From: a virus
Reading direction: 5' to 3' (one strand)
IMG/VR virus record: IMGVR_UViG_3300027806_000042
Coordinates: 1 to 64,000 of that record
DNA: 64,000 nucleotides
The translations under genes and the position numbers were made by a program. The notes under the pieces are model-generated. The model saw only the letters and a program-made list of their open reading frames with translations, was not told where the DNA came from and made no database searches. Every line of letters begins with the position of its first letter. The first letter of the stretch is position 1. Shown here one piece after another: positions 5,995 to 62,435 of this stretch.

Positions 5995-6469
5995 CAAAAA
6001 GTCACCTTGTCACAACCAAGGTGGGCGAGAACGCCATAGGCGATTTTATCTCCCATTTTAGTTTGATAGTCAAGTGGCTTTTTTATAGCCACCGGCCTTA
6101 TGCTGGGCGATCCTGCCGACCTATGGGAACGGGCAGGCAACGCAAACACTCAAGGGCATGGGAAAAGGTAAGTCTCGCCACAGCTTGTCGAGACAAACCA
6201 GGACTGGCTCTGTGATAAACCACAACCAGACAAGGTGAATGTAGTCGTTTGCGTGGCTGTTCACTGACCGTCATTTCCGCAAGGAAAAGCTCTGCTCCAA
6301 TGCCGACAGGATGACCCCGGCTTTTAGAGGCGCAACGCAAATTGTGAACGTCGAAACCGACTGATGGGACCCGACAAACACTATGAAGCCTTCTCGTGTA
6401 GGGAAGGCTTTGTCTCCAATCTTCCCTCCACCCCAACAAACACGGGCAGAGAAGGGGTAGAATACTAGG
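5995..6469. other. gene-poor structured intergenic region
   Basis: No convincing coding frame; open frames here lack ribosome sites and look non-coding. Local hairpins: caccttg/caaggtg (~6003-6023), gtggct/agccac (~6072-6090), gtctcg/cgagac (~6171-6200) and aagccttc/gaaggctt (~6384-6410). With a terminator at its left end it could encode a leftward small RNA, but I found no clear promoter for one. Confidence 0.4.
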
Positions 6470-8070: not shown

Positions 8071-8168
8071 TCCCCGCCACTCGTTGCAACGCTCCACTGC
8101 ACCGCGCGCCACAGCGCATTGCTAGGCTCCGCTTCGCTATGCTCCTCTTCGCCACTCAACGCAACGCA

Positions 8169-8216
8169 CCTTTGGGCAACCCGAAACCGCTTATGCGGCT
8201 TTGGGATGCCGAAGGG
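8169..8216 (+). repeat. array hairpin A
   Basis: Long imperfect stem: outer CCTTT/GAAGG-type pairs, GGCA with TGCC, CCC with GGG, AAA with TTT, then CCGC-ttat-GCGG. It is followed by TATC, as in copy B. Confidence 0.7.
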
Positions 8217-8299
8217 TATCTACCACGCTACACGACTCGGCGCTCCGCCGCGCTCCGCACCTCTACGCGGCGCTTCGCATCGCCACGCAACTCAACGCA

Positions 8300-8346
8300 C
8301 CTTTCTGTATCCCCAAGCAATCCTATTGTTTTGGGATACCGAAGGG
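8300..8346 (+). repeat. array hairpin B
   Basis: Same architecture as copy A, 131 bp later: CCTTTC with GAAGGG, GTATCCC with GGGATAC, CAAT-cct-ATTG inner stem. Several base pairs differ from copy A by compensatory double changes. Confidence 0.7.
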
Positions 8347-8420
8347 TATCAACTGCCGCCCCGCAGCTCCACGCTACGCCCAGCGACTCATCACGCCGCT
8401 TCGCACCGCAACTCAACGCT

Positions 8421-8456
8421 CCGACTTTCCCGCCGCTTCGGCGCCGGGATGGCCGG
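8421..8456 (+). repeat. array hairpin C (degenerate copy)
   Basis: Shorter version after the third CAACTCAACGC: CCG with CGG, TCCC with GGGA, CGC-ttcg-GCG with a stable TTCG-type loop. It keeps the position, though not the sequence, of copies A and B. Confidence 0.55.
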
Positions 8457-8536
8457 AAAACCATTCAACCACGCGTCACCTCTTGACGCTTCGCTCCGCA
8501 CCGCGTCGCAACTCAACGCATTAAAAGGAAAGACAA

Positions 8537-16532: not shown

Positions 16533-16850
16533 ATGTCTAACAAGGAGAATGAAATGAAGAACGTGATTATTGATGGCGTTGAATATGCGCCAGTTAATGC
16601 AGCCAAGGGCAGCCGCGCCGTGGTTGTGGTTGACCGGGGTTGGATTTTTGCGGGCGATGTTACCCGCAAGGATGGCCGCATCATGCTTACTCGTGCGCTG
16701 CATGTGTTTAAGTGGGAGTCAGTTGGCTTTGCCGGGATGATTGATAATCCCAAGAAGGCCAAGGCCGATCTTCGCCCTGTTGCTGATGTTGATATTCCCG
16801 ATGGTTCTGAGATTTTTTGCGTCCCCGTTTCTGATGGGTGGGGTTTGTGA
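16533..16850 (+). CDS. hypothetical protein, DUF6948-like, 105 aa
   Basis: The core AVVVVDRGWIFAGDVTRKDGRIMLTRALHVFKW is reminiscent of the small beta-rich domain of DUF6948; the match is from memory and approximate. It ends in VPVSDGWGL and overlaps the next gene by one base. Role unknown, probably linked to recombination or replication by context. Confidence 0.65.
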   Translation: MSNKENEMKNVIIDGVEYAPVNAAKGSRAVVVVDRGWIFAGDVTRKDGRIMLTRALHVFKWESVGFAGMIDNPKKAKADLRPVADVDIPDGSEIFCVPVSDGWGL

Positions 16851-17164
16851 TGGACTCTGCTTTTAGGCCAGTCGGCTCCGGCTACGGCTCCGGCGACGGC
16901 GACGGCTACGGCGACGGCGACGGCTACGGCAACGGCTGCGGCTATGGCTACGGCACCCGCGACGGCTCCGGCTGCGGCTATGGCTACGGCACCCGCGACG
17001 GCTCCGGCTACGGCTACGGCTCCGACTACGGCTACGGCAACGGCTATGGCAACGGCGACGGTAGCAGCTACTTCTACGGCGACGGCTCCGGCGACGGCTA
17101 CGGCTCCGGCTACGGCACAATCACACTAAACCGGCGCAATGCGCGAAAGGCTAAAAATGTCTAA
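16850..17164 (+). CDS. Gly/Asp/Tyr-rich repeat protein, 104 aa
   Basis: Residues ~5-92 are repeats of GDG, GYG and GSG. They are encoded by alternating ggctac, ggcgac and ggctcc hexamers, with two larger direct repeats (GYGYGTRDGSG). No membrane segment or catalytic motif. The region is probably disordered or forms a glycine-rich beta-roll; Asp spacing could allow calcium binding. It lies between nuclease and ERF genes in the same operon and is joined to both neighbours by overlaps, so it is likely translated. Confidence 0.7.
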   Translation: MDSAFRPVGSGYGSGDGDGYGDGDGYGNGCGYGYGTRDGSGCGYGYGTRDGSGYGYGSDYGYGNGYGNGDGSSYFYGDGSGDGYGSGYGTITLNRRNARKAKNV

Positions 17165-25637: not shown

Positions 25638-26285
25638 ATGTCAGAAGTGAATCTGGTTTGGGTAACACCCAACGCCGATCAGATGATTGGCTACATCGCC
25701 CGTGTCAGCAATGTAAGCGCCAAGCCAAACGATGAAGCGGCCCCGTTGATTTCATACCTTATCAAGCACAAGCATTGGTCCCCGTTTGAAATGGCCGATA
25801 TGTGCCTGGAAATCATCACTGAACGGGACATTACTCGTCAGCTTCTAAGGCACAAAATGAAGCCACAAGAATTTAGCCAGAGGTATGCTGCGACCAGCGC
25901 CTTACCTGAGGCCAGTAACCGCCCGGCCAGGATGCAAGACCCGAAGAACCGCCAGAAGTCTAAACCCTGCCGCGATCCTGAAATCATGAAGTGGTGGGAT
26001 GAAGCCCAAACAAAGATCAAGATGGAGGCGGATGCTATCTATAATGCCGCCCTTGAACTTGGTATCGCTAAGGAAGTGGCGCGGTCAGTCTTGCCCGAGG
26101 GACTAACCACAAGCCGAGTTTATATGAAAGGCGACATTCGCTCATGGCTGCATTACTGCGAAGTCAGGCGCGGGAATGGAACACAGCCAGAGCATATCGA
26201 GGTGGCGGATAAATGCTATGCCATCCTCAAGAATGAATTGCCTGATACTGTAGCAGCCTGGGAGGCTACGCATCATGATCTGTAG
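25638..26285 (+). CDS. thyX: flavin-dependent thymidylate synthase ThyX, 215 aa
   Basis: Makes dTMP from dUMP using methylene-tetrahydrofolate, NADPH and FAD. The ThyX motif appears as RHKMKPQEFSQRY (residues 71-83); the usual RHRxxSxNExSxRY is one residue longer. Conserved surrounding parts are present: HKHWSPFEMADM, VARSVLPEGLTTSRVYMKGDIRSWLHYCEVR and AWEATHHDL. It supplies thymidylate for phage DNA synthesis. AAGGAG ribosome site; it overlaps the next gene by 11 bp. Confidence 0.92.
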   Translation: MSEVNLVWVTPNADQMIGYIARVSNVSAKPNDEAAPLISYLIKHKHWSPFEMADMCLEIITERDITRQLLRHKMKPQEFSQRYAATSALPEASNRPARMQDPKNRQKSKPCRDPEIMKWWDEAQTKIKMEADAIYNAALELGIAKEVARSVLPEGLTTSRVYMKGDIRSWLHYCEVRRGNGTQPEHIEVADKCYAILKNELPDTVAAWEATHHDL

Positions 26286-26883
26286 CCTCGCCCTGGTCCT
26301 GTTGATGGACGTTTCTGCCTCTATCCTACCGGCGCATTGGATAGCGCAGCGCGATTACACCGCCGCCGCGCTGGCTAGTGATGATGTGGTGCGCGCCATT
26401 GAGCGGGAGCCACCGATTGCGGTCACGGTGATGGGCTTTGATAACGTAGCGCGCCCGGTGTTAGGCTGGCGGGTGCTGCATAATCGGTATGATGCCTTGG
26501 CGCTGTCACAGGAATTACGCGCGGTTAATCGCCCTGGATGGGGAAGCACGGATATAGCCGCTGCCATCCACGCCAGCCTTGATGCTTTACAGGCGGCGCC
26601 CTGTGATCCTGATCGCGCGGTGATTGACCTTAGCACAGATGGGGAAGCGGAGCCAATTACAACCGCCGCTGCGCGCGACGTAGCACAGCTTCGCGGCGTA
26701 ACCATTAACGCCATCGGCACGGATGCAGATGGGGAGGAATTTCTAAGGAAACACGCCATCACGGCAGATGGCTTTCTATTGATTGGAAGCTGGGATGATT
26801 ACCCCGCGCTGATGAGGCGGAAGTTAGTTATGGAGTTGGCGGGAATATCACAAATAGAAACTATCTCACACCTCTATCCATAG
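26275..26883 (+). CDS. VWA-domain protein, DUF1194-like, 202 aa
   Basis: The start LALVLLMDVSASI carries a metal-ion-dependent adhesion site (D12-x-S14-x-S16). GWGSTDIAAAIHASLDAL and RAVIDLSTDGEAEP complete a von Willebrand A fold. DUF1194 proteins are mostly found in alphaproteobacteria. The hydrophobic N-terminus is the first beta-strand rather than a clear signal peptide. Ligand and role unknown. It ends the early operon and overlaps the convergent polyvalent-protein gene by 23 bp. Confidence 0.8.
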   Translation: MICSLALVLLMDVSASILPAHWIAQRDYTAAALASDDVVRAIEREPPIAVTVMGFDNVARPVLGWRVLHNRYDALALSQELRAVNRPGWGSTDIAAAIHASLDALQAAPCDPDRAVIDLSTDGEAEPITTAAARDVAQLRGVTINAIGTDADGEEFLRKHAITADGFLLIGSWDDYPALMRRKLVMELAGISQIETISHLYP

Positions 26884-29800
26884 CCTGCTCCATAATCGTA
26901 CCCGTTATCTGATTGCGCCGTTGCCTTAATGGTACTAGGGCATCGGCCTTTTCTTGCGGGTCCATATTAGGATTGTTCTGAATAGCCCTCATCCTACGGC
27001 TAATCTCACCAACATCGCGGGATGCCTTGTCAACCTGCTTCTTTAGACTAAACAAGTCAGACCTTTCAGAAGCAATCTCATTAGCCCTAGCCATATCCCC
27101 GGCAAGCCGGGCGTCGTTCATGGCCGTTGTCCATTGGGTCACTTCCCGCTTCAAATCATAGAAGTCACCAACAAACCGGCTAACCTTTTCTTCATCGCCT
27201 TTGATGAACCGCCGCATACCAGAAAGTGTCGTGGCGATACCAAGGGGTGTATTAGGATCACCAAGCGGCCCAGCAGGCTTGCCAGGGGTTACTCCCGTCC
27301 ATCCAAGGAAACCATCTATAGCACTCAGTATCATGACGCCCGTGGTGCCTAGATAGCCTTGCAAAATGGATTGCGCTTGGATTGGTGATATTTCCATCTT
27401 AGCGCCACGAGGTAGCTGCCCAATGGTATTATTGATGGCGTAAGCTACTCCCTCAGCAACCCTAGATGTATCCTCTTGCACTCGTTCACTTGCGGGGCGT
27501 GACTGCATCCCCGCGCTTTCTAATTGCCTCTGCCGGAAGAAATCATAATTAGTCATAACTGTCAGGAGGGGATCAACGGCAGCAGGGATTGGACTAGAGC
27601 CCAAGGTATTAGTAAATGCAAAAGCAAATGCCCTAGCTAGGTCGCCGCCATGCTGTTTGCGATAGGCGTCATACACCATCACAGGGATAGCGCCAAACCA
27701 AGTACCAACCTCAAACGCACGAGGCAAAAGAACGGTTGTTCCATTGACATAAGCAATGTCATACAGCATCTTCCGTTCAATGGGTTCATTGTCCCACTCT
27801 TCCGGGTCTGACTCAGCAGCATAAATAGCAGCGGCAACACTAAACAACCCAAGAACCGCGCCCCTTGCTACCAAGCGCCCTATGAATTTTTTAGCCCCTA
27901 GATTCTTTTCATTTTCCATGAGCCTGTATGTGCCTTGGATTTTGGCGTTCAAGAACGGAATCAACGGGGCCAAAGTTGAAATCAGACCGCCAAAAATGCC
28001 GGTTCCAATTCCGCGCCTTGAATACGGCGCCAATAGATAAGCCTGAAAGGCAGCTTCATCGGGGTCAACACCCTTGGAAACCAAATGATTGACGAGCCTA
28101 GTACGTTCAGCAAACTCGGTAACTTCGCCAGCCCTTTCCAGACTTTTCACAAAACCCATCGCTCGGTCCAGCATTGAAGCCGTGCCATCTTCCATGCGAA
28201 CACGGCGCTTCAATTCTTTAGTAACATCAGGGCCACCCTGCCCCCAAGTGTAGCCGCCAAAACCAGACACATCACCAATGGACGTATAGGCCGTAGTTTG
28301 CTTCAAAGTATCTTTGAAGCCACGGGTGAAGAAGTTAAAGAACGGGACACCCTCTTGCACATAAGCCATCTGCCTGCCGCGCCAAAGGTTCGCCAGCATG
28401 AAGGGGGGCGCAAGGGTGATTGTGTTTCTAATAAAACCAGAAAATGAAGCCAACGCCTTCACAAAGCTATTCTGAATCTGTGGTGGCGCCGTGCTGATAG
28501 CAACCATCATTAAGGGATCATCAATCCGGTAATGAACGTCCTTGCCGTTTTCCCGAATGGTCAAGATATTCTTGGCGCCCTGCAACCTAGTAGGTACTTT
28601 CTCCGCTAGACCGGCAAACTCCATCCCCTTCGCGGTATTCCGCATGGCAACATTCTTTAGGCCAGATTTTACAATGGCATCAGCATTCCGAATGATGTTC
28701 TCAAACAGATCACCAATGGGGTCCTCGCCCCCCTCGCGCTTCTTTAATGCGTCACTAGGGTTCTTGAACGTCCCGGCTGTAGATGGGCCTATAATCTGAT
28801 CGGCATTATGGTAGGCATCATCCTCCATTGTGCGATACAATGGGGTATAAAAACTACCCATAAGTTTGTCTTTGGTTTCCTTATCAATAACCCCTGTATC
28901 AACCAAAATCTGCAATAGGCTATTGTTCCAATTATTTAGGTCTTTTTTTGCTTCCTTCCATGCAGGGAAGTCCCGCTCAGATTCTCGGATTACATTGTTG
29001 ATTTCAGTATCGGTCAAGTTGGTAAAACCGGCGCGGCCTTGTTTCCGCAAGTCGCGCTCCTGACTAGCAACAAGATATGTTTGGAAAGCCTTGGATTCTT
29101 CGGGCTTAGTGGAAACCCTGCCCGCGATCATGGCCTGCATAGACTTTACCGCAGGATCACGCTCTAGTACCCCGCGCGCTATGTTGAACTTATACCCACC
29201 GCCATTCATCATATACGCAATGCGGGCATCATTATTCATTGATCCTTCCCAAGACCGGCCAGCAGTCGCCAAGTCAGGACGCCCCTTAGAACGAAGGAGT
29301 TGGTCAAGTAAGTGTGCTGGATAGGCTTGGTTCACACTAGACAATACAAGGCTGGTTCTGGCGTTCACGCGCCGCTTTACCGGCGCCTCGCCGGGCTTCT
29401 CACCGCCATACAGAAATGTGTATTTAGCCCTTGCCCCTGTAAGGGCATCCAGAGCCTTGCGGAATAGGCTGTCCGGTTCCTGTCCGTATGTCCCTGTTAC
29501 CTTGTCTATGGCGCTTTGATGGGCTGCGCTGATCTTTGGGAGTGTGCGGGCGCTGTATTCTTCTGATGCCGCGCCACGTTCAGGTATTCTATAGGCCGGA
29601 TTGTGGTAATCATGCTGAAGGGAGGCGAAAGGAAATCCCTCTGGCGCATAACTTCTATACATATATTTTTCGTCGCCGGGAAATTCACCAATTTTGGCAG
29701 TAAATCTAATATCAGCAGGGAATGGATCAAATTCCCCAATACCAACCAATTCAGCTTCCGTCACGGCTTCTTTGTATTTCATTCTTGCATTTTGTATTCT

Positions 29801-32800
29801 TTTTTGAATCTTAAAAATTCCATCATCGGTTAGGTTTGGTTCCCGCAATTTCTCAGAATAATCTTCAATAGTTTTTCTTCTCCAATCCATTTTGGACCAA
29901 GCTGCGCGCTGATCATCAAGATTTTTTTTGTATTCAATACCCTCGGGGGAGCTTGTTCTGGAATAACGCGCTGTTTCTTCAGGGGTTAAAATACCAAATT
30001 CCGCACGTTGCAGCGCGCCCTTCAGCCCGCCTTCCGACTCTAATTTTATATTGGCAGATTCAATGATTGATTGCGGAAGCCTTGCGCTAGACTCACTCCC
30101 CCTAAACTCAGGCGCAGCATCACCAGCAAACCTACCAGCATCACCTTCCACAACCCTGCCAAACACATCATCAGGGCTGTTAAACCCATCACCACGCAAG
30201 GAATTACCCATGCGCCTAGTGAACTTAGTCAGCATGTTCACAAACCGCGTGAAGGATGGCTTCAATCCGGTCATTGGAACCCCGCGCTTGGCGGCATCAT
30301 GCAATGAACCAAACACATAAGCCTCAGCCTCGCGGGCGCTTTCAATGTTCCCCGGCAAGGTGGACTTCAGGAAATCCCAATAAGAATCCTTGGACCCCGG
30401 CATACGGATTGTCTGTAGTTTCCGCTTAATGGTGGAATCAACTTGATCCAGCGTCATGTTGTCCTTGAAGGACTGACCCATTAGCTTCTTAAAAGCAGGA
30501 TCATATTGGCCGTAGTAATCTTGCAACACATGGAAGGCTTCATGGGCTGCTGTTTCTTGTGCCATGCTTAATACTGAATCAGATAGGGAAATCTCAATAA
30601 TGCCTGACGCAGCGGTATCAATCGGCGCCAGCCGACGGCCTTGGGCCTCTATGTCATTCTTCAGGATGCGTTCTACAAACCTAATTTCATGGTTTGCACC
30701 GGCAGGCAGAATAGCAGCCATCACTTCACCGGCCTTGAAGGCGGCATAAATCTGTTCCGGCTGGAACTTACCGCTTTTCATATCCCGCTCAATAGCGGTG
30801 GCAATAGCTTCACCCTGCTTGCCTTTGGCCCTAATCTTGTTCAAGCGGTCATTGATAACCGCCATGAAATCAAAGGCAGGACTTGGTTTGGTGGCCTGTT
30901 CAGGTTGCGTGGCCTGTCCGGGTTGATTGCGCGCGGAGTATTCTTCCGCAGGGCCAAGCGGCTTTGCGGGGGCATTGGCAAACCTAGCTTGGTCAAGGGC
31001 TTCAACATCGCCTTCAGTTACAGGGGTAGATGGAACCTCAAACCCAAGCGCGCGGGCAATATCTTCATCGCTATCACGGGCCGTTACACCAGCTTCATCT
31101 AACGCGCGCTCTAATTGCTGCGCCGCACGTTGCCGCTCCTGCCCTTCATAATCTTCAGTCAAACCAAAGTTGACACCACCACCAGATAATTCCTCTCTGA
31201 TGGCATTAAGCATATCGTTAATGTCGGCATCTTCGGGAAGGAAACCTTCTTCAACTAGCTTCTCCCGCGCCCGATCTAGTGTAAGGCCACCCTTGTAACC
31301 AACCGTCTTACCATTCTGGTTCTTGATTGGCGTCCTTGGCTGATTGTTAATAAGGCCAGGAAGGGCTTTATTAGAACCAAGGATATTAGAAACCTCACCG
31401 GCCATGTAGCCAGTATTGTTTAGGCCACCAGCCTTCCTTAGAAATTGCACCAAAGATTGCTGTTTTGGCTTTACGCCACCACGCAAGTCTTGAAGGGTTT
31501 GCTTAACGTCAGAGGGCAAAGCAAAGCCAGGGCCTTCGGGTGCCTCAGATGGGGCGCCCATCGGAGTTTCAACGCGCCCTTCTTCCACAGCCGCAATACG
31601 CTCATTTGCAATTTCAGAGCTTTGAGAAGAAAGATTATTGGCAACATACTTCTTAATCTTGCCTTTTTTAGATTCCCCTTTACCAAGAGAAAACCCAAAC
31701 TCACCTGATTGGTTTTCGGCTGATTGAATTTGACGATCAAGCGCAGCCTTAACCTCTCCCATTGGGATTTGCCTACCGGCAATTCCAGAAAGATAGGCTT
31801 GAAGGGACGGGACAGAAACCGTGTAAGAAGGCTTATCTTTAATCTGATCGGCAATGTATTGTGAAGCCAAAGTCCCCAATGCTGCCTCTTGATTTTCACC
31901 AGAACGAAGCCCTTGGGCAGCAGCAGAAAAATCTTCAGGACTAATTTGACGAATAGACGGGGCAGGACGCAACGCCTCTTGGGCGCTGGCAAATAGTTTC
32001 TCTTGTTCTTCAGCAGGGCGGGATAGAAAATCCTCAGCAGGTATATTAAGACCGCGCTCTACAATAGCCGCGCGCTGAAACTCAGGTTGCCCAGCCTGTA
32101 ATGCGTCACGCAATTCAGCATCTTCAGTCCGGTCTATCTCTGGACCAGGGCCGCGCCTAGCAGCACCAACGCCAGCACCAACACCGGCACCAACAATAGC
32201 GCCCATAGTTGCACGAGAACCAACACCGGCAAGCAATTCGCGGTCCACTTCCGCACGTTGCCTAGCGATGTTTTCCGATAGTGCTGCACCACCTTCTTGC
32301 CCTGCTTCTTGACCCAATTCGCTAAGGCTAGTCCCCAACGCGCGACCAACAACACCCCGCCTTGTCATAGGGCGGAACATCGCCCCTTCAGCGCCGGGCA
32401 AAGCAGCCCCAACCGTTCCAGAAATAACGGCAGTCTGAGCGGCGGCTTGTCTAGCGGCACTTACCGCAAGGCGTTCCTTGGCTTCATCAGGATTCAAACC
32501 TTGCTTCAATAATTCCTGATATTCAGGGCTGCGCTGTAATTGCTCCGGGGACAAAGCCGTAATTGTGCGATAAACTTCATCGGCGGAACTGCCGCCTTCA
32601 AGCAACGATTCAGTCCCGACAGCGCCAGCAACACCAGCGCGGGTAGCAGTGGTTTGGGCTAACTGCCTACCAGCCACACGGCTTGCAACACCAGCAGCGC
32701 CCCTTACAGCCAAACCCCCCACAAGGGCCGTGGCTAGTGACGGAAGGCTCTCAATAGCCACGCCAGCCACAATGCGCGGATTTCTAATGGCTTCGGCAAG

Positions 32801-33193
32801 GGCAGTCTTAGCTTGCTCACCAAGGCCCTTACTTTCAGCCTCTTGCATGGCAAGATCAAATAAGGCTTGCTGCTTTCTAGTGCCTTCGGAAAGCTGACTT
32901 GTGCCGTAGTCTGAAATGGCTTGGCCTACATTCCTTAAACCACGGCCAACAATGTTATCCTCCATGCCGGGGACAACATTGATAATTGATCCAGCGGCAG
33001 TAGGAATCTGCCCAACGCCGCGCATAAGATAACCATACGCATCAGGTATGGCTTTCTTTTGTCTATCAAATGACTGCTCAATAATCGGGCGGTAGCGAGG
33101 GTCTAAAGCAATCTGCCGTTCGGCTTGCTCTTGCGGGATATTATCTGGAACCTCTACAAAAGACCCATCAGGGAGCGGAATATAATAACTCAT
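26861..33193 (-). CDS. giant polyvalent-type internal virion protein, 2110 aa
   Basis: Probably packaged and injected with the DNA. ATG 33193 (MSYYIPLPDGSFVEVP) overlaps the previous stop. Parts: an N-terminal domain with an IPQEQAERQI motif; Gly/Ala-rich hydrophobic stretches at ~145-170 and ~330-345, possibly membrane-active; a zinc-metalloprotease-like HEAFH (H884, E885, H888) in AAHEAFHVLQDYYG; and a C-terminal region (~1480-1830) with KALASFSGFIRNTITLAPPFMLANLWRG, which resembles LPD38, a domain of phage polyvalent proteins. Giant proteins like this replace a tape measure or ejection proteins in some short-tailed phages. It is the last gene of the leftward late operon. Confidence 0.85.
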   Translation of the reverse strand: MSYYIPLPDGSFVEVPDNIPQEQAERQIALDPRYRPIIEQSFDRQKKAIPDAYGYLMRGVGQIPTAAGSIINVVPGMEDNIVGRGLRNVGQAISDYGTSQLSEGTRKQQALFDLAMQEAESKGLGEQAKTALAEAIRNPRIVAGVAIESLPSLATALVGGLAVRGAAGVASRVAGRQLAQTTATRAGVAGAVGTESLLEGGSSADEVYRTITALSPEQLQRSPEYQELLKQGLNPDEAKERLAVSAARQAAAQTAVISGTVGAALPGAEGAMFRPMTRRGVVGRALGTSLSELGQEAGQEGGAALSENIARQRAEVDRELLAGVGSRATMGAIVGAGVGAGVGAARRGPGPEIDRTEDAELRDALQAGQPEFQRAAIVERGLNIPAEDFLSRPAEEQEKLFASAQEALRPAPSIRQISPEDFSAAAQGLRSGENQEAALGTLASQYIADQIKDKPSYTVSVPSLQAYLSGIAGRQIPMGEVKAALDRQIQSAENQSGEFGFSLGKGESKKGKIKKYVANNLSSQSSEIANERIAAVEEGRVETPMGAPSEAPEGPGFALPSDVKQTLQDLRGGVKPKQQSLVQFLRKAGGLNNTGYMAGEVSNILGSNKALPGLINNQPRTPIKNQNGKTVGYKGGLTLDRAREKLVEEGFLPEDADINDMLNAIREELSGGGVNFGLTEDYEGQERQRAAQQLERALDEAGVTARDSDEDIARALGFEVPSTPVTEGDVEALDQARFANAPAKPLGPAEEYSARNQPGQATQPEQATKPSPAFDFMAVINDRLNKIRAKGKQGEAIATAIERDMKSGKFQPEQIYAAFKAGEVMAAILPAGANHEIRFVERILKNDIEAQGRRLAPIDTAASGIIEISLSDSVLSMAQETAAHEAFHVLQDYYGQYDPAFKKLMGQSFKDNMTLDQVDSTIKRKLQTIRMPGSKDSYWDFLKSTLPGNIESAREAEAYVFGSLHDAAKRGVPMTGLKPSFTRFVNMLTKFTRRMGNSLRGDGFNSPDDVFGRVVEGDAGRFAGDAAPEFRGSESSARLPQSIIESANIKLESEGGLKGALQRAEFGILTPEETARYSRTSSPEGIEYKKNLDDQRAAWSKMDWRRKTIEDYSEKLREPNLTDDGIFKIQKRIQNARMKYKEAVTEAELVGIGEFDPFPADIRFTAKIGEFPGDEKYMYRSYAPEGFPFASLQHDYHNPAYRIPERGAASEEYSARTLPKISAAHQSAIDKVTGTYGQEPDSLFRKALDALTGARAKYTFLYGGEKPGEAPVKRRVNARTSLVLSSVNQAYPAHLLDQLLRSKGRPDLATAGRSWEGSMNNDARIAYMMNGGGYKFNIARGVLERDPAVKSMQAMIAGRVSTKPEESKAFQTYLVASQERDLRKQGRAGFTNLTDTEINNVIRESERDFPAWKEAKKDLNNWNNSLLQILVDTGVIDKETKDKLMGSFYTPLYRTMEDDAYHNADQIIGPSTAGTFKNPSDALKKREGGEDPIGDLFENIIRNADAIVKSGLKNVAMRNTAKGMEFAGLAEKVPTRLQGAKNILTIRENGKDVHYRIDDPLMMVAISTAPPQIQNSFVKALASFSGFIRNTITLAPPFMLANLWRGRQMAYVQEGVPFFNFFTRGFKDTLKQTTAYTSIGDVSGFGGYTWGQGGPDVTKELKRRVRMEDGTASMLDRAMGFVKSLERAGEVTEFAERTRLVNHLVSKGVDPDEAAFQAYLLAPYSRRGIGTGIFGGLISTLAPLIPFLNAKIQGTYRLMENEKNLGAKKFIGRLVARGAVLGLFSVAAAIYAAESDPEEWDNEPIERKMLYDIAYVNGTTVLLPRAFEVGTWFGAIPVMVYDAYRKQHGGDLARAFAFAFTNTLGSSPIPAAVDPLLTVMTNYDFFRQRQLESAGMQSRPASERVQEDTSRVAEGVAYAINNTIGQLPRGAKMEISPIQAQSILQGYLGTTGVMILSAIDGFLGWTGVTPGKPAGPLGDPNTPLGIATTLSGMRRFIKGDEEKVSRFVGDFYDLKREVTQWTTAMNDARLAGDMARANEIASERSDLFSLKKQVDKASRDVGEISRRMRAIQNNPNMDPQEKADALVPLRQRRNQITGTIMEQAMDRGVR

Positions 33194-34563
33194 TGAGGGG
33201 CGGGCCAAAGATTGGGTTGACGAATCTGGCCGGGTGGTGGCCTGCCAGAACCTTGCGTTGGGGCCGGGGTTTCAAACAATGTTGGATTAGCCCCGCCTCG
33301 CAATGCGAGAAGCCTTCTAATTTCATCTGCCTGCGCTTCAAGTCGCGCACGCTGATCAATTAAACCTTGTCTTTCTGTTCGATCAGTTGTTTCCCTAATT
33401 TGCTCATTCAGCCCAGCAATACGCCGCGTATAATCTGGAAGCGCCCGTTGCAAACTTTGTGCGCTAGCAAGTTCGTTTTGTTCCTCCCTAGCCGCCACCC
33501 TTTCCGCCCTACGCTCCGCACGATCACCAGCAGCCTCACCCAACCGCAATTCACTCAACCTTAGTTGACGTTCCTGATTAGTGATAATGCCGCGGCGATA
33601 GGCTTCCTCAGTCTGAGCGCGACGGATAGTGATTTCATCCTGAATACCTTGACGCTCACCCAAACGACCTTGGCGCATTTCTTGCGTATAGGATTCCAAA
33701 CCACGCAACCCACCCTGCCCAAGATTAGCAAGAGCGTTAGGGTCTTTACTCGCCATCATAGCAAGGCCAGCCTGCATCAAGCCGGTATTAACAGCATCCT
33801 TCCGGTAATCTTCCCGGCTCTGTCCAGTAGCCCTTGGACGGTCATACAAGGCTTGTATGGTGGGGTCTGTGGTTTGACCGGATGGTTGTGCCGCTACAGC
33901 GTTAATACCAGCGCCAGCGCGTGTGGGGCTAGGGGCTTGTCTTGGTTGACCGGGCGGCGGCGCAGGCGGGCCGTATGGTTCACTAGCGGCACGTTCAGCG
34001 GGCGGCGTGGATTCAGTGCTGGCAGGGGCGGCGGGTCTCTGCGCTGGCGCTGGCGTGGCGGCAGGTTGTTCAGGTGAAAATGGAGGCGCAACACCAAGAC
34101 GTTCAGCAAGGGCAGAAGGCTCAATACCATATTGCCTTGCAACATTATCAATCATGGCAGGTGTGCGAAGCGATGGGTCCAAAGACAATTCCGCCGCAGC
34201 CGCATCAAGAAGGCGCGGGCTTGTGGAGCGCGGCAAACCAGATGGCATCGGCCTAAAAACAGGCAATCCACCACCCTCAGCCATCCGAACAACACCACCT
34301 TCGCGGAAAGCCTCAATACCAGCCTCCTCCTCTTGCGGCTGTTCTTCAGGGTAATACTCAGGCTGCGCTTGGCTTGCAGCTTCCTCAGCCATGCTAGACT
34401 GTGGCGCTGGACTAGCCATAGCGCCCTGCCTCATTTGCTGGCGCCGCTTCATTTCTGATAGCACCAAGTAAGACGGGGCCAATCCAGTAGGATTCTGCAA
34501 CTCACCGGAAAGCTGCATGTCAGAAGCGTTCTTTAATGCGTCCTGAACCTGAAGAATGTTCAT
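33190..34563 (-). CDS. structural/internal virion protein, 457 aa
   Basis: ATG 34563 (MNILQVQDALKN) is chosen because the longer frame enters the upstream gene. Gln-, Pro- and Ala-rich low-complexity segments (residues ~55-245), then a coiled-coil C-terminal half (RLSELRLGEAAGDRAERRAERV). A motif GGVVRMAEGGGL resembles glycine-rich segments common in podovirus internal proteins. It immediately precedes the giant protein and is probably an ejection or internal-core partner. Confidence 0.6.
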   Translation of the reverse strand: MNILQVQDALKNASDMQLSGELQNPTGLAPSYLVLSEMKRRQQMRQGAMASPAPQSSMAEEAASQAQPEYYPEEQPQEEEAGIEAFREGGVVRMAEGGGLPVFRPMPSGLPRSTSPRLLDAAAAELSLDPSLRTPAMIDNVARQYGIEPSALAERLGVAPPFSPEQPAATPAPAQRPAAPASTESTPPAERAASEPYGPPAPPPGQPRQAPSPTRAGAGINAVAAQPSGQTTDPTIQALYDRPRATGQSREDYRKDAVNTGLMQAGLAMMASKDPNALANLGQGGLRGLESYTQEMRQGRLGERQGIQDEITIRRAQTEEAYRRGIITNQERQLRLSELRLGEAAGDRAERRAERVAAREEQNELASAQSLQRALPDYTRRIAGLNEQIRETTDRTERQGLIDQRARLEAQADEIRRLLALRGGANPTLFETPAPTQGSGRPPPGQIRQPNLWPAPQ

Positions 34564-59792: not shown

Positions 59793-62315
59793 CTAGTAAT
59801 ACTCTGCCCTAGTTTGGGGAGTATAATCATCTTCATCATCGCTGGGAAGCCTCAATAAACCGCCCTGCCTGTACCTCATAAGAGCCATAATGACCGTATC
59901 CACATAGTCATCATGCGCCCCAACAGGAAACGACGCACACTCCTCAATCACTTCATTCGCCCAATTACCCGTTGGCGCCCAAACAACCCCTGATGCAAAT
60001 ATGTCAGAGATTGAATTGGCGCGCATCACCTTATCCCCGGACGCTCGGGTGGGGGTGAACTCAGATACCATCACCCCAGCCTTCCTCAATTCATGAATCA
60101 AAGGCAAACCGGACGCTTTAGCTTCAATCAGGAAGGTATCAGGCTCCCATTCCTTATACAATTCAATAGCCTTGGCCTTTAAGTCAGGGAACTCCAAACG
60201 ATCCTTCCAGGCATCCAGCATGATAATATTAGACCCGCCCTCGCCCTCGTTCTCAAACACCCCCCATACTGTAAAGGCCGAATAGTCGCTCCGGTTGTTC
60301 TTGGTGAAAGCGGTATCCGACGCAATGATGATATACTCACATTGGGGCATACGCTTCTTATCCCAACGGCGCCACCACTCTCTTTTGATAATAGCCCCCT
60401 CTTCTGAGGTAGGCTTCTGTTGATATTGAGCGTTCCACTTAGAGGCAGGCAATTCAGACTTCAAAGCCTCTAGGGCGGGCTTTGACCAGAACGCAGGCCA
60501 CATAGGTTCACCGGATGGGAGAATAGCAGGCAACTCAATCACCTCCCATTGGTCCCCATCACCACGGTCAATAGAAGCCTGCACTAAGCGCCCTGTAAGG
60601 TCGCCAACACCCCATCGGGTCATAACCACCACAATAGCCGCATTAGGCTGTAGCCGCTGCCTAGGGCCAGAGGAATACCACTCATACACCTTCTCAAACA
60701 CCTTCGGGTCATGAGCGGCCTGAATAGCCTCCTGCTCCGAATGTGGATCATCAATGATGAACAAGTCAGCGCCCTTACCAGCAATGGCGCCCCCAACACC
60801 TACAGCAAAGTACGCGCCATTCGATGTAGTGTTCCACCGGCCAGAAGCAGTCGAGTCAGCCCGCAACCCAACACCAGGGAACACATCACTAAAAGCCTCG
60901 TCCTTAATTAAATTCCGAACCTTACGTCCAAAATCAACCGCCAACTCAGCCGTGTGGGTAGCCTGAATAATCTTCTTCTCAGGGTACTTACCCATAAAAT
61001 AGGCAGGCAATAAATATGAAGCAAACTCTGATTTGGTGTTTAATGTTACAAGCATCCCATGACCAACCATGAATTGCTCGTCTTTTCTTGCCACTTTGAT
61101 ACAAACCGTGCTGCCCGTCCTATCAAGTTTCTTGATCCTGATGAAACGGCATTTATCTGAGTGAATTGTTCTTTCTGACTTCCTTTGAAGGAATGCACAA
61201 TTTTTCAAATAGAAAGACAGTCTGTAGGTTTCACCGTAGTCTTTCTCATAAATACGCGCCCGCGAAACTTGGATACTGTTCTTGACCCCTAAACTCCAAA
61301 GCAGGCGCCTCACTAAATATATGAAATCTTTACTCTTTTGCGAAAAAAAACATTGCCCATTTTGAGACACATTTCCATCCGTGTCCATCAGGCCCTTGAG
61401 TAAATCCATGCGTTGCTTTGGGGACGACAGGAGGTAACATTCTGGAATATGTTTATTCTCAAGAACTCCTAACTCCCGCAATTTTACCTTTAAGCCTTTG
61501 ATTCCAAATGACATTTTAGTTGATTGGTCCGTTGTGATGTAGCCTCTACGTTCAATTTCAGGGCGCACAATCCCTGCATCATCATCGTGCATGGTAATAA
61601 TCGCTTGGGCGGATGTTCCATCCCCAAGCCAAACCCCTAAAACATATGGATCAACCAACAACTCGGCATCTGGAAACTCAACCGCTGAAAAAGCTGGCAA
61701 CGTAGCAGCACGAGGATTAAATTTCCGCTCTCCGTATACCACTTCAATGTGACCGCTTCTTAGCGTTTTAACTCTCGCGCCCTGTTCCCTGTGCCATAAT
61801 TGTTCGGTTGTGTATGTGTGGTACTTTTTGGTTTTCCTCTCTAGCCTGACATTCCAACGATGGTCCCCATCACATATAACTTCGGCGCCATCATCTGTGG
61901 TGACAGAATATAAATCCATATCATTGTAGATTTGAGACTTCCCAATAACTTCTGTTGGCTTCCCATCTGGACCAAACACAAAATCACCAACAGCCACAGA
62001 CCCCATTGTTTTCCACCCGTCCGTGGTCAAAACCGGCGTGTTGATTTCAAGAGGATGACGGGGCGCCATATTGATAATAACCCGCTTGCACTCCCCACTA
62101 ATCACCCGGTCAAACGTATCAGCCATAATCCTATGGTGAGGCCCCTCAATAAACCCAGGCCACATACGCTTCACAAACGGAAGAAAATTACTCTGCGCCC
62201 GCTCCTTACCCTTAGCATCCTCCAAACCCTCCAATAGCTTCAACAACTCAACCTGATCCGCAATCGGCATCGAAGATAACTTAGGCAAAATCTGGGCAAT
62301 AGTGGCAGAGTCCAT
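59793..62315 (-). CDS. terL: terminase large subunit with intein, 840 codons
   Basis: Motor ATPase and nuclease that packages DNA. Start MDSATIAQILPKL at 62315 with AGGTG upstream; a longer frame to 62432 is not supported. Extein parts: N-terminal MAPRH, then TKSEFASYLLP (together the Walker A PRHTKSE), Walker B ADLFIIDDPHSEQEA, and nuclease motifs IIIASDTAFTKN, FLIEAKASGLPL and GAHDDYVDTVIM. A 339-aa intein interrupts PRH/TKS. After splicing the mature protein would be 501 aa, a usual TerL size. Confidence 0.92.
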   Translation of the reverse strand: MDSATIAQILPKLSSMPIADQVELLKLLEGLEDAKGKERAQSNFLPFVKRMWPGFIEGPHHRIMADTFDRVISGECKRVIINMAPRHPLEINTPVLTTDGWKTMGSVAVGDFVFGPDGKPTEVIGKSQIYNDMDLYSVTTDDGAEVICDGDHRWNVRLERKTKKYHTYTTEQLWHREQGARVKTLRSGHIEVVYGERKFNPRAATLPAFSAVEFPDAELLVDPYVLGVWLGDGTSAQAIITMHDDDAGIVRPEIERRGYITTDQSTKMSFGIKGLKVKLRELGVLENKHIPECYLLSSPKQRMDLLKGLMDTDGNVSQNGQCFFSQKSKDFIYLVRRLLWSLGVKNSIQVSRARIYEKDYGETYRLSFYLKNCAFLQRKSERTIHSDKCRFIRIKKLDRTGSTVCIKVARKDEQFMVGHGMLVTLNTKSEFASYLLPAYFMGKYPEKKIIQATHTAELAVDFGRKVRNLIKDEAFSDVFPGVGLRADSTASGRWNTTSNGAYFAVGVGGAIAGKGADLFIIDDPHSEQEAIQAAHDPKVFEKVYEWYSSGPRQRLQPNAAIVVVMTRWGVGDLTGRLVQASIDRGDGDQWEVIELPAILPSGEPMWPAFWSKPALEALKSELPASKWNAQYQQKPTSEEGAIIKREWWRRWDKKRMPQCEYIIIASDTAFTKNNRSDYSAFTVWGVFENEGEGGSNIIMLDAWKDRLEFPDLKAKAIELYKEWEPDTFLIEAKASGLPLIHELRKAGVMVSEFTPTRASGDKVMRANSISDIFASGVVWAPTGNWANEVIEECASFPVGAHDDYVDTVIMALMRYRQGGLLRLPSDDEDDYTPQTRAEYY
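61038..62054 (-). other. intein in terL, 339 aa, probable class 3 with DOD homing endonuclease
   Basis: Splices itself out of the terminase at protein level. Block A NTPVLTTDGWKTMGSVAVGD; block B DGDHRW; endonuclease motifs YVLGVWLGDG and LLKGLMDTDG; block F VCIKVARKDEQFMV; block G GMLVTLN, then T as +1 residue. The first residue is Pro, not Cys/Ser, and the penultimate residue is Leu, not His. Trp67 (B:12), Cys318 (F:4) and Thr337 (G:5) form the WCT set that defines class 3 inteins. Confidence 0.85.
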
Positions 62316-62324
62316 AAAACACCT

Positions 62325-62355
62325 AAAAAAACCCGGCAGCCCTAAAACCACCGGG
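62325..62355 (-). terminator. rho-independent terminator or attenuator before terL
   Basis: Minus-strand stem CCCGGTGG/CTGCCGGG (8 bp, two G-U pairs) with an 8-nt loop, followed by seven T, 10 bp upstream of the terL start. It may attenuate terL transcription. Confidence 0.65.
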
Positions 62356-62435
62356 CCAAGTTTGAAAGGAGACACCATGCCTAGGAGGAATAGGCACACA
62401 CACAACCTATACAACCAACATACACATTTCAACCC

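Follow-up and report, generated by a model that had tools for sequence, protein, structure and literature searches.

The DNA that we analysed, hereafter the window, comprises 64,000 nucleotides of an uncultured virus (positions 1 to 64,000 of the 67.7-kb IMG/VR record IMGVR_UViG_3300027806_000042). Our results point, with a probability of about 0.93, to a mobile full-length class 3 intein within the Walker A loop of the Terminase_6-type TerL encoded there. TerL lies in an open frame of 879 codons on the minus strand (62432..59793), and this frame carries an in-frame insert of 339 amino acids (61038-62054; PLEINTP...GMLVTLN). The insert sits exactly between MAPRH and TKSEF. The first-pass annotation had placed the split between MAPRH and TKSE, and this proved right to the base, as the TerL of a close relative (L010) reads MAPRH-TKSE uninterrupted. 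The exteins belong to a Terminase_6C-type TerL (PF17289, 53.4 bits; TIGR01630, 60.2 bits), and in a weak match of the N-terminal half of the intact L010 protein to T7 gp19 (E 0.05), PRHTKS fell over the gp19 Walker A. The TerL start is most likely the ATG at 62315, with the 879-aa ORF over-extended at its 5' end; the N-extein would then have 87 aa, the precursor 840 aa, and the spliced TerL a predicted 501 aa. The open length upstream of the insertion site (PRH/T, where the slash marks the junction) is the same in L010 as in the window TerL. The GC content is 44% in the insert versus 50% in the exteins. Coordinates are collected in Table 1.

Table 1. Features of the intein-containing terL gene, in window coordinates
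Feature	Position	Strand	Basis
N-extein of TerL, 87 aa, ends MAPRH	62055..62315	-	ATG start inferred; same open length in L010
Class 3 intein, 339 aa, Pro1...Asn339	61038..62054	-	reading frame, residues, fold
Pro1 codon, first residue of the intein, lacks a nucleophile	62052..62054	-	translation
His65 codon, block B:10	61860..61862	-	invariant in 68 and 105 relatives
Trp67 codon, block B:12, W of WCT	61854..61856	-	aligned to Trp67 of 6bs8; invariant
LAGLIDADG homing endonuclease domain, limits approximate	61152..61664	-	PF14528, PI-SceI-like model
LAGLIDADG motif 1, GVWLGDG, Asp145	61617..61637	-	Asp in 103/105 relatives
LAGLIDADG motif 2, LLKGLMDTDG, Asp226	61374..61403	-	Asp in 103/105 relatives
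Cys318 codon, block F:4, C of WCT, predicted nucleophile	61101..61103	-	aligned to block F Cys of 6bs8; invariant
Thr337 codon, block G:5, T of WCT	61044..61046	-	Thr in 101/105 relatives
Leu338 codon, penultimate, replaces His G:6	61041..61043	-	Leu or Met in 7/8 sub-clade members
Asn339 (C-terminal) and Thr +1, splice junction	61035..61040	-	translation
C-extein of TerL, 414 aa and stop, begins TKSEF	59793..61037	-	Terminase_6C nuclease domain, PF17289, TIGR01630

Identical copies of the 339 amino acids were present in four other IMG/VR contigs, one of which shared 99.95% identity with the window along 6 kb; the window and these four contigs are near-copies of one virus. Because the same insert recurs in four further contigs, an assembly error is unlikely, and on these copies together with the conserved catalytic residues we rejected an assembly artefact or a chance ORF. 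A group I intron was likewise rejected: no Rfam match was found anywhere in the window, and the insert stays open in frame from end to end.

The residues of the insert are those of a class 3 intein. It interrupts a conserved protein in frame and with seamless junctions (empty TerLs read PRH-TKSEF), and its first residue is Pro1 rather than a Cys or Ser nucleophile. The WCT triplet, that is Trp at B:12, Cys at F:4, and Thr at G:5, is present as Trp67 (in DGDHRW, from insert position 62), Cys318 (in VCIKV, from 317), and Thr337 (in VTLN, from 336, which continues with Leu338 and Asn339). The His at B:10 (His65), the C-terminal Asn (Asn339), and a Ser, Thr, or Cys at position +1 (here Thr) are in place as well. 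The penultimate His at G:6, which is usual in class 3 without defining it, is replaced by Leu338. With a Hint fold nearest to that of class 3 inteins, these features agree with the published sequence definition of the class (PMC5222942, PMC7891396). Pro at position 1, the penultimate Leu, and Thr at +1 had all been read from the letters in the first-pass annotation, and translation confirmed each of them.

Alignment with characterised class 3 inteins, which that annotation had proposed as a check on its class 3 assignment, gave the class 3 intein of Mycobacterium smegmatis DnaB as the best solved match by sequence (6bs8, E 5.9e-14). His65, Trp67 (against Trp67), Cys318 (against the block F Cys), and Thr337 (against the block G Thr) were all in register, so that the WCT residues stand at the class 3 positions, as had been claimed. 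The class 1 intein gp41-1 matched far more weakly (E 1.6e-3); a match to 6riz at E 8.3e-5 was to a gp41-1 variant with an engineered (grafted) WCT motif. Across 68 distinct homologous inteins, His65, Trp67, Cys318, and Asn339 never varied and Thr337 was present in 64. The same four residues were again invariant when 105 relatives were aligned, with Thr337 in 101. The AlphaFold model of the intein, built from a 73-row alignment (pLDDT 92.9), shows a Hint and LAGLIDADG fold. A Foldseek search with this model returned PI-SceI, the yeast VMA intein, as the top match over the whole length (E 8.9e-20); it has the same combination of splicing domain and LAGLIDADG, but it is a class 1 intein with 17% identity to ours. 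For the splicing domain, the best mini-inteins were those of class 3 DnaB (E 1.5e-7), and 6riy and 6bs8 ranked above gp41-1 and other mini-inteins. Because our intein tree contains no class 1 outgroup, kinship with class 3 is read from this similarity ranking and the residues rather than from a rooted tree. The earlier assignment to class 3 is thus supported both by the alignment to solved inteins and by the invariant catalytic residues, and our results likewise support the annotated P-loop position and LAGLIDADG endonuclease.

The insert also contains an apparent homing endonuclease. Pfam placed LAGLIDADG_3 (PF14528) above the cut-off at 61221-61406 (30.3 bits), and Hom_end_hint below threshold. 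Both motifs named in the first-pass annotation as signs of a LAGLIDADG endonuclease, GVWLGDG at insert position 140 and LLKGLMDTDG at 218, retain their catalytic Asp (D145 and D226), and each Asp is conserved in 103 of the 105 relatives.

On the model of the published class 3 mechanism, from which we infer the path for this intein, His65 would assist the attack of the block F Cys318 on the bond at the His-Pro1 junction, and Cys318 would take up the N-extein. Thr+1 would then take the N-extein over from Cys318, and cyclisation of Asn339 would release the intein. The exteins would be ligated as ...MAPRHTKSEF..., restoring the P-loop. Both the endonuclease motifs and the allele pattern described below suggest that the LAGLIDADG domain would cut intein-less terL at PRH/T and that repair would copy the intein in.

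Is the PRH/T site occupied in other TerLs? In a survey that used the C-extein as query, and was thus blind to the intein, 78 of 80 TerL loci showed the junction; the site was empty in 72 and occupied in 6. Alleles lacking the insert, a search for which had been suggested from the first reading, are therefore common. At L010 the site is empty and the C-extein is 96.9% identical in amino acids to that of the window. Two others (L009 and L011) carry a different class 3 intein at PRH/T, 42% identical to the window's, in TerLs that are 96.4% identical over the C-extein. The nearest inteins to that of the window (L191 and L354, 65-66% identity) reside in TerLs with 71-72% identity to the window TerL. 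A pattern scan for HN/TKSEFA gave 91 stretches, in which 80 loci were read; 79 of these 80 are TerL inteins at PRH/T with a block F Cys, although about a dozen lie on contigs that stop short of the N-side junction. Class 3 inteins thus occupy PRH/T in dozens of IMG/VR phages. They form two lineages (I and II), with the window intein in lineage I.

In the intein tree, lineages I and II and a group of TerL inteins at Walker B (DDPH/S) form one 50-row clade with support 100. The TerL tree rejected a single clade for lineage I (AU p 1e-42), for lineage II (4e-5), and for all carriers (8e-7). This TerL tree was rebuilt without the rows that have a second intein in the C-extein, since several relatives of that kind had given false long branches in the first one. 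As neither the intein lineages nor the carriers as a whole are monophyletic on the TerL tree, these data point to repeated exchange between inteins and TerLs, the pattern that a homing element should leave. No co-conversion tract beside the PRH/T site was seen in 60-bp bins comparing the window, L009, and L010.

Eleven TerLs carry two inteins (L116, L118, L142, L152, L109, L095, L099, L106, L127, L100, and L146). One is the class 3 intein at PRH/T; the second is either a class 3 intein at Walker B (DDPH/S) or a class 1 intein (Cys1...SHN/T) in the VM/TRW motif. L100 and L146 have only a mini-insert (about 140-150 aa) in VM/TRW, and L109 has a further intein directly before IIDDPH.

Could Leu338 mark an intein in decay, in which the endonuclease persists while loss of the His impairs splicing, so that TerL is poorly made or the phage defective? 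Most relatives do have the penultimate His. Because the HN/TKSEFA pattern is biased toward His at this position, we used an independent set chosen regardless of the C-terminus, in which the residue was His in 65 of 76 inteins and Cys, Ala, Met, Gly, or Leu in the other 11. However, Leu or Met recurs in seven of the eight rows of the sub-clade to which the window intein belongs (support 97/96), and comparison of L355 with L409 gave a dN of about 0.08 and a dS of about 0.87 (dN/dS about 0.1), indicating purifying selection. L409 holds a natural mini-intein (L409:2498-3043, 182 aa) of the same PRH/T lineage, which has lost its endonuclease yet keeps the splicing blocks, Cys1, WCT, and the penultimate Leu; this argues that splicing may work without the His. 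The window and the four other contigs all retain an uninterrupted frame. TerL is essential, and a non-splicing allele is therefore unlikely to persist. AceL NrdHF, a class 3 intein without the penultimate His, splices well, in minutes (PMC7891396), so that this loss is an already known tolerance. We consider decay very improbable and read the missing His as a tolerated trait of the sub-clade rather than as a sign of it. The absence of this residue could slow C-terminal cleavage. In a further, rather unlikely scenario, the sub-clade would have exchanged His for Leu or Met under purifying selection, another residue would aid Asn cyclisation, and C-terminal cleavage could be slower or dependent on a packaging signal; if so, assembly of the active packaging motor would be delayed.

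Five of the eight sub-clade inteins also start with Cys1. In the sister inteins L096, L192, L355, L356, and L409, Cys1 stands beside an intact WCT, so that two candidate nucleophiles coexist. This arrangement would suit splicing by class 1 or class 2 chemistry, the WCT being incidental, but Pro1 rules out the former for the window intein, all 105 relatives have both Cys F:4 and Trp B:12, and the nearest solved mini-inteins by sequence and by fold are class 3; such a path is extremely doubtful. Splicing might instead answer to a signal (redox, temperature, or binding of DNA or portal) and so gate DNA packaging. By analogy with other P-loop inteins, the P-loop would have to be inactive until the insert is removed, and oxidation reversibly inhibits a class 3 DnaB intein through a switch that requires Cys48 (PMC6195587). 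In the window intein, however, the Cys48 partner is Leu, and it is never Cys in 44 relatives at PRH/T; the absence of this cysteine rules out redox gating via a DnaB-type Cys48 disulfide. A Cys61 near the active site, present in 15 of the 44, is a possible different redox partner. The patchy presence and the empty sister alleles are more in keeping with a selfish element than with a conserved switch, and we regard gating of packaging by splicing as speculation and a conditional intein as improbable. A mobile class 3 intein remains our preferred reading.

How does this intein compare with known ones? The mycobacterial DnaB mini-inteins (Msm DnaBi1, 6bs8; MchDnaB1, 6rix/6riy) likewise have WCT, His B:10, the block B DxxH, a Hint fold, and insertion in a P-loop, but they lack an endonuclease and have a penultimate His and Cys48, where the window intein has LAGLIDADG, Leu338, and Leu48. 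Phage TerL is a familiar host of class 3 inteins (PMC5050341), and by 2020 a total of 1701 inteins of this class had been listed (PMC7891396). TerL1-a, TerL1-b, and other class 3 phage inteins (PMC5050341) have in common with ours the class 3 residues, LAGLIDADG, and the TerL ATPase domain; those compared, from NelitzaMV, Thibault, Acidovorax ACF1, and Escherichia phage Ec_Makalu_002, are 30-37% identical to it. The P-loop inteins of these phages lie at GK/T or just after, and the mycobacteriophage survey gave the Walker A Lys/Thr and a neighbour as the TerL P-loop sites (Kelley et al. 2016, PMC5050341). The window intein differs from the TerL1-a/TerL1-b position, which is Lys/Thr or one residue off, in being inserted two residues upstream of Lys/Ser (PRH/TKS). 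The IMG/VR inteins at PRH/T (lineages I and II; L088-L167, L191, L354, and others) share its site, class, and TerL family, although most have the penultimate His, whereas its own sub-clade mostly has Leu or Met. AceL NrdHF (PMC7891396; PDB 6zgq) has been shown to splice by class 3 chemistry without that His but, unlike the window intein, is split, has Met for Trp, and resides in another host protein.

We found no published description of the PRH/T site in the literature, of which our coverage was partial. The element is of a known kind and is notable mainly because close relatives have PRH/T empty or filled with a very different intein. With PRH/T, the phage packaging motor gains a further intein site, one that occurs widely among environmental phages. 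The empty, lineage I, and lineage II alleles in TerLs 96-97% identical offer a natural series for tests of homing within a phage population, and the Leu/Met sub-clade with its mini-intein is good material on how class 3 splicing is completed without a penultimate His.

Several other features of the window were noted. The hexamer CGGCTA recurs in about 40 degenerate copies at 16849-17130, a region that on the plus strand, from an ATG at 16849, encodes a short Gly/Tyr/Asp-rich protein. Degenerate clustered repeats rich in CGC/CTCCGC lie between ORFs at 8102-8520, where the 24-bp unit TTTGGGATGCCGAAGGGTATCTAC is repeated once at 92%. A 15-bp tandem repeat at 3-144 encodes a GADLS/R protein of the pentapeptide type, and the ORF at 1769-1988 contains an Ala-rich repeat of 9/12 bp. 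A 2115-aa protein with the large polyvalent protein domain LPD38 (PF18857) is encoded at 26861-33208, and a DUF1194/von Willebrand A-like protein at 26275-26883 adjoins a ThyX gene (25638-26285). There is a single tRNA-Lys (ttt) gene at 6051-6130.
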